NCBI GenBank assembly: GCA_039980135.1
Contig: JBDXCV010000001.1
Location: 138,914 to 191,986, forward strand
Length of the DNA: 53,073 nt
From: Alphaproteobacteria bacterium
GTDB taxonomy: Bacteria; Pseudomonadota; Alphaproteobacteria; UBA6615
Direction: 5' to 3'
The stretch's first letter is position 1; each line of letters begins with the position of its first letter. Position numbers and translations under genes: made by a program. The notes under the pieces are model-generated. The model saw only the letters and a program-made list of their open reading frames with translations, was not told the origin of the DNA and ran no database searches. This document shows positions 51,131 through 53,073 of the stretch, one piece after another.

Positions 51131-52372
51131 ATGGCCAGGCCTAAAGTCATTGTGAACATGTATCCGGTATTGCCGGCCGCAGATGAAGCGGACCGGGCGG
51201 CGAAGCGCCCCATCGGACGAAATTCCGAGATTTACAACAATGTGCTGCACGAGATGGTCGACATCGTCAAAGCGGCGGACGACCTCGGCGTTTGGGGTGT
51301 GAGCACCATCGAACATCATCTCCATTCAGAAGGTTATGAATTGGCACCAAGTCCGGGGATCGTGAATGCCATGTGGTCCCAGCACGTAAAGAATGCCCGT
51401 GTCGGGACCATCGGTTATGTCGCGGCGACGCGCGACCCGATCCGCATGGCCGAGGAAATGTCGGTCATGGACCACGTGACCCGGGGCAAGTATTTTGCCG
51501 GATTTGCGCGGGGTTACCAGGCCCGCTGGGCGCATATTCTGGGGCAGTATGTCGACGCTCAGGCGACGGCGTCGGACGGTAGCGCGGTAGATGAAAAAAA
51601 CCGCGAGCTCTTCGAGGAGCGGGTGCTGCAGGTCGTCGATTGCTGGGAGAACGAGACGGTCGCGTTCGACGGCAAATATTACAAGGCGCCCTATCCCTAC
51701 GACACAGGGGTGGAAAATTTCCCCGCGGCATCTGTCGCGCAACGCATGGGGGCGCCAGGCGAAATAGATGCGGATGGCACGACCGTCCGGCGTGTTTCGG
51801 TCGTCCCCAAACCCTATCAGGATCCCCATCCGCCGGTGTTCGTCGCGGTAAGTTCCAGCCCGGACTCGATCCGTTTCTGTTCGCGAAACGGTTTTTCGCC
51901 GGTGTATTTCACGCCGACCGATCATCTGGTCGAACTCGCCAATGTCTATGTGGACGAGGGCAAGAAGACGGGGCGTGATCTGCAGTTCGGCGCCAACCAA
52001 ACGATCGTGCGCTGGCCGCATTTCTCACGCGACAAGGCGCATTTCCGCGAGCAGCTCGCGGCCTATGACGCTGAATTCTACAAGAATATTTACGGTTCTT
52101 TCTTCCCGTTCCTGGTGGACGGCGTCGACAGCGATGCGGCGATGGTGGATCGGATGGTCGATACCGGGATTTTCATCGGCGGGACGGTCGAAGACACGAT
52201 CGCCGAGTGGAAGCACACCTATGAGCGCATCCCGTCGGAGTATATTTGCCTCATCTGGCATTATGCGATGTGTCCGAAGGAGACGGTGATCGAGGAGCTT
52301 GAAATCTTTATGGAGAAGGTGCTGCCGGAGCTCGATATACCCGAATTCGATGTGGTTCAGGCTGCCGAGTAG
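51131..52372 (+). CDS. LLM class flavin-dependent oxidoreductase
   Basis: A 413-residue TIM-barrel protein of the bacterial luciferase-like family. Characteristic pieces are DDLGVWGVSTIEHHLHSEGYELAPSP, the MAEEMSVMDHVTRGKYFAGFARGYQ segment that binds FMN and substrate, FFAVSSSPDSIRF-like region near 240, and the end GGTVEDTIAEW. Family members include F420 or FMNH2-dependent monooxygenases; substrate is unknown. ATG 51131 follows GGGGGGTAGGAC, a strong purine-rich site. The gene stands alone between hemB and ldtR, divergent from hemB. Confidence 0.85.
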   Translation: MARPKVIVNMYPVLPAADEADRAAKRPIGRNSEIYNNVLHEMVDIVKAADDLGVWGVSTIEHHLHSEGYELAPSPGIVNAMWSQHVKNARVGTIGYVAATRDPIRMAEEMSVMDHVTRGKYFAGFARGYQARWAHILGQYVDAQATASDGSAVDEKNRELFEERVLQVVDCWENETVAFDGKYYKAPYPYDTGVENFPAASVAQRMGAPGEIDADGTTVRRVSVVPKPYQDPHPPVFVAVSSSPDSIRFCSRNGFSPVYFTPTDHLVELANVYVDEGKKTGRDLQFGANQTIVRWPHFSRDKAHFREQLAAYDAEFYKNIYGSFFPFLVDGVDSDAAMVDRMVDTGIFIGGTVEDTIAEWKHTYERIPSEYICLIWHYAMCPKETVIEELEIFMEKVLPELDIPEFDVVQAAE

Positions 52373-52442: not shown

Positions 52443-52447
52443 GATTC
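52443..52447. promoter_or_regulatory. GANTC methylation site near the ldtR promoter
   Basis: GATTC, a single CcrM-type site 16 bases upstream of the CtrA box. One site could be chance, but it sits next to a perfect CtrA box. Confidence 0.3.
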
Positions 52448-52462
52448 CAATCCGCGTTCGGT

Positions 52463-52478
52463 TTAAGCCCTCCTTAAC
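52463..52478 (+). promoter_or_regulatory. Perfect CtrA box upstream of ldtR
   Basis: TTAA (52463-52466), GCCCTCC spacer of seven bases, TTAAC (52474-52478), with a further C. This exactly fits the CtrA consensus TTAA-N7-TTAAC. It lies 58 bases upstream of the ldtR ATG. The downstream half also forms part of a GGTTTAAG/CTTAACC near-palindrome. Confidence 0.6.
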
Positions 52479-52536
52479 CTGTTTCTGCGATCCTGAATGC
52501 TCGAATTAACGCTCGGGACACGGGAGACGCAGGAAA

Positions 52537-53022
52537 ATGAAACAGACCTATCTAGCGACGATCGTCCTGCTCGAACGGATGCATCGCCAGTTTCTCGAGG
52601 TGATCAAGTCCGAGCTCGAAGGTCACGATATCCGCGACATCAACAACGTACAGGCACTGATCCTGTATAATATCGGCGGCGACGAGATGACCGTCGGAGA
52701 GCTGACCCTGCGCGGCTACTATCTCGGCTCGAACGTTTCCTACAACGTCAAGAAGATGACCGAACACGGTTATCTTCACCAGGAACGCTCCTCCCATGAT
52801 CGGCGCTCCGTCCGTGTGAAGCTGACGGAGAAGGGCCTTGAACTCAGCCGCGTCCTCGAACAGATGTTCGAGCGTCATGTGGAAGCGGTGGCGGATTCGA
52901 TCGACGAAGACAAACTCGGTGCGGCGAACGAAAGCCTGCGCGATGTGGAGCGGTTCTGGCTCCAGCAGCTGGGATTTGGCCCACGCGTTGCTGAATTCTC
53001 CCGGGTCGAGACAGCGGCCTAG
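52537..53022 (+). CDS. ldtR: MarR-type transcriptional regulator LdtR
   Basis: A 161-residue MarR-family regulator named for its control of an L,D-transpeptidase gene and cell-wall stress in rhizobia and Liberibacter. The family start MKQTYLATIVLLERMHRQFLE is nearly diagnostic, followed by INNVQALILYNIGGDEMTVGELTLRGYYLGSNVSYNVKKMTEHGYLHQERSSHDRRSVRVKL, which holds the winged helix. ATG 52537 has GCAGGAAA upstream. Together with the D,D-carboxypeptidase in this window it points to envelope control; a CtrA box precedes it. Gene ends 50 bases before the window edge. Confidence 0.9.
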   Translation: MKQTYLATIVLLERMHRQFLEVIKSELEGHDIRDINNVQALILYNIGGDEMTVGELTLRGYYLGSNVSYNVKKMTEHGYLHQERSSHDRRSVRVKLTEKGLELSRVLEQMFERHVEAVADSIDEDKLGAANESLRDVERFWLQQLGFGPRVAEFSRVETAA

Positions 53023-53053: not shown

Positions 53054-53073
53054 GCGGCTGCATTCGCAGCCGC
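53054..53073. terminator. Terminator hairpin of ldtR, cut by the window end
   Basis: GCGGCTGC (53054-53061), ATTC loop, GCAGCCGC (53066-53073). The stem is perfect; the T-run lies beyond the window. An A-rich stretch just before the stem (AAAAAGG) would give a tail on the minus strand. Confidence 0.75.

Follow-up and report, generated by a model that had tools for sequence, protein, structure and literature searches.

The LdtR-like regulator gene near the end of the window (the whole stretch of 53,073 bases analysed here) is preceded by a TTAA-N7-TTAAC element that is quite probably a CtrA promoter box, with CtrA binding predicted from the motif and its conservation. It is most likely a promoter of a kind known for CtrA, with a target, the ldtR-like gene, that is not described in the literature searched. 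Since the nine closest full-length relatives keep the box and it recurs in other groups, the site is probably genuine and would link control of the envelope with the cell cycle. The initial annotation placed the site correctly and probably also read it correctly, and comparison between genomes supports that reading more strongly than the annotation had assumed. The exact box stands 58 bases upstream of the start codon, as that annotation had placed it, and is the single occurrence of TTAA-N7-TTAAC in the window. The rarity claimed for chance matches in 53 kb was confirmed by 100 dinucleotide shuffles, which gave a mean of 0.02 matches (at least one match in 2 of 100). The features of the region are listed in Table 1.

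Table 1. Features of the ldtR-like promoter region, in window coordinates.
Feature	Position	Strand	Basis or remark
Luciferase-like (LLM class) monooxygenase gene	51131-52372	+	Upstream neighbour; PF00296
GATTC (GANTC) site	52443-52447	+	Outside the conserved element; comparable place in 2/10 orthologues
Candidate full CtrA box TTAAGCCCTCCTTAAC (TTAA-N7-TTAAC)	52463-52478	+	Sole exact match in the window; TTAAG-N6-TTAAC in 10/10 full-length family orthologues, the window's own included
Putative -10 hexamer GATCCT	52489-52494	+	10 bases 3' of the box
Predicted transcription start (approximate)	52501	+	Set by placing the hexamer at -12 to -7
LdtR-like MarR-family regulator gene (161 aa)	52537-53022	+	ATG at 52537; NF047395 182.9 bits; Pfam HTH_27 and MarR_2 above cut-off

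The protein belongs to the MarR family, with a winged-helix MarR domain recognized above cut-off by PF12802 and PF13463. Its best NCBIfam match is LdtR (NF047395), at 182.9 bits (185.8 in a six-frame search), below the curated equivalog cut-off of 250 bits. Five other orthologues score 184-196 and a paralogue 148 against the same profile, all under the cut-off, and "LdtR-like" is therefore the safer name. The label "cell-wall stress regulator" in the initial annotation was carried over from LdtR of Liberibacter and Sinorhizobium and is not sustained by a score of 182.9 against 250; an envelope-related role may nevertheless be supposed for the regulator. The closest solved structure is a weak match (E 8e-8). 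A second LdtR-like paralogue in the genome (G000:C13:192813-193241, L029) is 48% identical and has a single TTAA upstream, without the N7 box. Directly 3' of the ldtR-like gene, at the window end, lies a terminator-like inverted repeat, GCGGCTGC ... GCAGCCGC (53054-53073).

The family search covered 24 genomes, 15 of them with a match at E 1e-20. The orthologue set comprises ten full-length proteins (the window's own included) from four genera, 74-100% identical; three truncated and nine paralogue-type matches were left out. The truncated matches (L024, L025 and L026) start at residue 93 or 78 and cover only the C-terminal part of the protein, as would be seen with a truncated or misassembled gene. 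TTAAG-N6-TTAAC is present in the window and in all nine other orthologues, at -68 to -74 relative to the start codon. When about 130 upstream bases were aligned, no column upstream of the leader was invariant except the ten of TTAAG and TTAAC, and the rest of the promoter has diverged. In the nine paralogue-type promoters the N7 box was not found (0/9), and eight of them have a single TTAA.

Exact boxes were also compared by target across the window's genome (G000) and the genomes G021, G008 and G010. Among the sites fetched, ldtR was the only target linked by similarity in all four; a link was seen for a pilin in three genomes and for fliX/flgI in two. For G021 the comparison covered 10 of 15 N7 sites. 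The genome G001 also has a box at ldtR, and it could share no other target because the ldtR site alone of its 33 was compared. Genomes G015-G017 were excluded, having many matches to pattern and control alike.

Two further short motifs near the box were considered and rejected as components of the element. The GANTC site lies 15 bases upstream of the box (16 by coordinate difference), where the initial annotation had noted it, but its conservation did not follow, as only two of the ten orthologues have one at a comparable place. A conserved promoter GANTC, through which GcrA and CcrM might exert joint control, is thus missing from the family promoters (2/10), despite the GcrA and RAMA-domain proteins encoded in the genome. 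A TTAAC at 52506-52510 was taken as a possible third half-site, and only 2/10 family promoters have another TTAAC within 200 bases. Over the window as a whole (1-53073), GANTC is depleted more than twofold (123 observed, 286 expected from shuffles), which would fit a CcrM methylation system.

Outside the family, the class search gave a match at E 1e-25 in 206 of 386 genomes, and promoters were drawn from the better-scoring matches listed. The sample of 104 consisted of 25 of 26 new loci (L067, with 66 bases upstream, was dropped), 60 listed matches (one per genome, in roughly rank order, with some genomes skipped) and 19 of 29 loci, the other ten being family members or a fragment. Removal of near-identical sequences left 100 promoters, of which 98 entered the final comparison. 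Exact TTAA-N7-TTAA was present within 200 bases in 14 of these 98 non-redundant ldtR-like promoters; the other spacings between N2 and N14 gave 0-3 occurrences each. The promoters of neighbouring genes at the same loci served as controls and had the exact N7 pair in 2 of 238 (Fisher p 1.1e-6); controls were required to have 100 intergenic bases, a rule from which ldtR promoters were exempt. Twelve of the 14 boxes lie at -62 to -84, and the 14 come from twelve further families, judged by family codes. The initial annotation had envisaged that the box might be absent from orthologous ldtR promoters, and it is instead found in every family orthologue and again in these 14. With one mismatch allowed within 150 bases, 40 of the 98 ldtR promoters had a pair at N7 and 12-25 had one at other spacings; among the controls, 23 of 238 had a pair at N7 and 4-18 at other spacings. 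TTAA-like pairs are therefore generally more frequent in ldtR promoters, and clearly most frequent there at N7. They exceed the controls at nearly every spacing, and the controls likewise peak at N7. The exact box is absent from 84 of the 98 promoters, and no locus of one set of 19 has it. A first small control had given no difference (3/44 ldtR promoters, 2/56 others); the comparison of 98 with 238 is the larger test. By this sampling the box outside the family is recurrent, not universal, and the pattern is compatible both with ancestry followed by losses and with repeated gain.

The genome analysed (3.76 Mb, 98.8% complete) encodes a CtrA, on which the reading of the initial annotation depended. 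The protein at G000:C9:25982 scores 423.1 bits against a curated cut-off of 350 and is 71% identical to the Caulobacter CtrA sequence used as reference, with a near-identical DNA-binding domain. A ChpT-type gene (PF10090) adjoins ctrA (G000:C9:25982-27087; L009, L083). GcrA is encoded, as is a RAMA-domain protein that is assigned as CcrM-like by its domain alone. The ctrA promoter itself has a TTAA-N6-TTAA pair rather than an N7 pair; in Rhodobacter and Magnetospirillum, CtrA sites with 6 bases between the half-sites are reported (PMC6180460).

Genome-wide counts say less than conservation does. In 3.76 Mb the exact pattern matched 8 times, one palindromic place with overlapping matches being counted twice, and the reversed-pattern control matched 6 times. 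TTAA pairs spaced N4 to N10 occur at 8, 4, 9, 10, 2, 3 and 5 places, respectively (one more overlapping N10 pair also exists), and the N7 count is only modestly above those of other spacings. These raw counts are weak as proof, and it is conservation that raises the site above chance. As to the promoter enrichment proposed as a check in the initial annotation, all ten TTAA-N7-TTAA places are intergenic, but so are 28 of 32 pairs of other spacings, and intergenic location was accordingly rejected as proof. Many equal matches inside genes, which that annotation had named as possible counter-evidence, were not found among the ten N7 places by the gene calls, which come from a simple codon-usage caller and may be wrong for some genes.

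The further N7 boxes of the genome lie near an Flp pilin gene, fliX with flgI, csrA beside genes read as flagellar (names such as FliP or FlgB are the analyst's reading), a response regulator gene beside a transglutaminase-like gene, a PAS-domain gene, an enoyl-CoA hydratase-like gene and purB. Two more, a TPR-type gene and a place near an amidase-like gene, were named by the analyst's reading only. Pilin and flagellar genes are reported as CtrA targets elsewhere (PMC4433202, PMC4287350). The box of the PAS-domain gene, TTAAGACCAATTTAACCTG (L008 1501-1519), is much like that of ldtR and lies 69 bases upstream of the called start. The sole two N8 pairs (G000:C9:516311 and C9:584890; L092, L093) have the palindromic form TTAACCTWATGGTTAA and may be bound by a different regulator.

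The layout of the promoter bears on the mode of control. GATCCT, GAATAT, GACTAT, GAACAT or GATAAT stands at the same distance from the box in nine of the ten family promoters and is absent in L021. From the predicted start, the 5' base of the box would be at about -38, and activation is reported for Caulobacter full sites whose 5' base lies close to -35 (PMC4287350). The place of the box before a -10-like hexamer thus makes activation the likelier mode. It is not certain, because opposite trends are reported in Agrobacterium and Liberibacter crescens. In Agrobacterium two promoters that carry CtrA motifs close to the start codon became more active once the motif was altered, an effect that the authors ascribed to repression (PMC7003649), and in L. 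crescens under osmotic stress ctrA went down and ldtR up, the change in ldtR not being significant (PMC8832773). As proposed here, phosphorylated CtrA would occupy the -35 region of the ldtR-like gene by binding both TTAA half-sites, which are separated by roughly one turn of the helix, and would most likely help RNA polymerase to the -10-like hexamer 10 bases downstream. The MarR regulator would then be produced while CtrA is active.

The box could instead be the operator of the regulator itself, a TTAAG-N5-CTTAA inverted repeat of the kind that MarR dimers bind. The window core is indeed palindromic (TTAAG CCCTC CTTAA), and Liberibacter LdtR is reported to bind its own promoter (PMC3999280). 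The symmetry is not kept in the relatives: the C before the second TTAA occurs in 5/10 family members and 1/14 outside promoters, whereas the C after the second TTAA occurs in 10/10 and 9/14, and its mirror image, a G before the first TTAA, in 0/10 and 4/14. Conserved inverted symmetry was thus found neither in the family nor in the outside promoters, and the directional letters that are conserved fit the Hyphomonas ChIP-seq consensus TTAA-N7-TTAAC rather than a symmetric MarR operator. The box also differs from the LdtR site known from footprinting, ATATTCCTTGTATTTTAA (PMC3999280). Moreover, the family genomes G009 and G011 gave no LdtR-like match at E 1e-20 and yet have N7 boxes, some of which lie upstream of ctrA (417 bits, cut-off 350), fliX and a pilin-like gene (under the Pfam cut-off and 47% identical to a pilin above it). 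Boxes at these three genes in genomes with no LdtR-like gene detected make an LdtR operator unlikely. The comparison covered 20 loci of the two genomes, two listed G011 places being left out, and most boxes other than those at the three genes had no matching target in the other genomes. On this evidence autoregulation is an unlikely explanation of the box.

A different factor with a similar site, such as an OmpR-family regulator like CenR, or MucR or SciP, might act at the box with or without CtrA. OmpR-family regulators are reported to bind repeats about one turn apart (PMC9275681), and most Caulobacter cell-cycle promoters under MucR peaks are reported to carry the CtrA motif (PMC4287350). 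The CenR motif, given as TGA-N8-TGA, is unlike the box (PMC9275681), the SciP motif is GCGNC-based (PMC4287350), and the box matches the CtrA ChIP-seq consensus exactly (PMC7200025); we consider control by such a factor quite improbable. The remaining explanation is a chance match in AT-richer promoter DNA. It would accord with the intergenic location of TTAA pairs of most spacings, with the closeness of the exact count to that of the reversed control and with the outcome of the small control. Conservation in ten of ten orthologues amid diverged surroundings speaks against it, as does the spacing-specific excess outside the family (14/98 against 2/238), a comparison by which the chance reading appears already largely refuted. 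Its probability is judged to be very low. A CtrA box thus remains the preferred reading of the element.

Among known systems, the full CtrA site of Caulobacter, TTAA-N7-TTAA (PMC4287350), is like the present one in its half-sites, 7-base spacing and flagellar co-targets; judged from the predicted start, a 5' base near -35 would be shared as well. It differs in the target gene, as the LdtR profile gave no match in the Caulobacter vibrioides control genome; the ldtR-like target is possibly missing from it, and this could be the reason that the link went unnoticed in that model. The consensus from CtrA ChIP-seq in Hyphomonas neptunium, TTAA-N7-TTAAC (PMC7200025), is identical to the box, including the 3' C. 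LdtR of Liberibacter asiaticus and Sinorhizobium meliloti is a MarR-family relative of the window protein and is reported to act on an L,D-transpeptidase gene, osmotic tolerance and motility (PMC3999280, PMC8832773). It differs in its binding site and in that the window protein falls below the LdtR cut-off, and CtrA control is not described in the accessible parts of these papers. In Agrobacterium, CtrA motifs lie upstream of L,D-transpeptidase genes (PMC11527210), which predicts that CtrA acts there on the same envelope process; those sites differ in being at the enzyme genes and in their partly atypical spacing. The Agrobacterium genes affected by PdhS2 include the MarR-family gene Atu2665, which is reported with a CtrA half-site and no full site (PMC7003649). 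It is of the same regulator family as the window gene, but has the half-site only. Literature searches on CtrA with LdtR or MarR-family regulators returned no paper whose accessible text links CtrA and LdtR.

A wider proposal is that membership of LdtR-type MarR regulators in the CtrA regulon is old and recurrent among Alphaproteobacteria and was overlooked since Caulobacter appears to be without the gene, and that CtrA times an envelope and osmotic-stress regulator across many lineages. We hold this at a little short of even confidence. The prediction is short and testable, consisting of two half-sites and one gene, and CtrA ChIP-seq data exist for several genera. If CtrA does control an LdtR-type regulator, a single transcription factor would link the state of the cell cycle to osmotic tolerance and to remodelling of the envelope, in lineages where the Caulobacter paradigm offers no guide.
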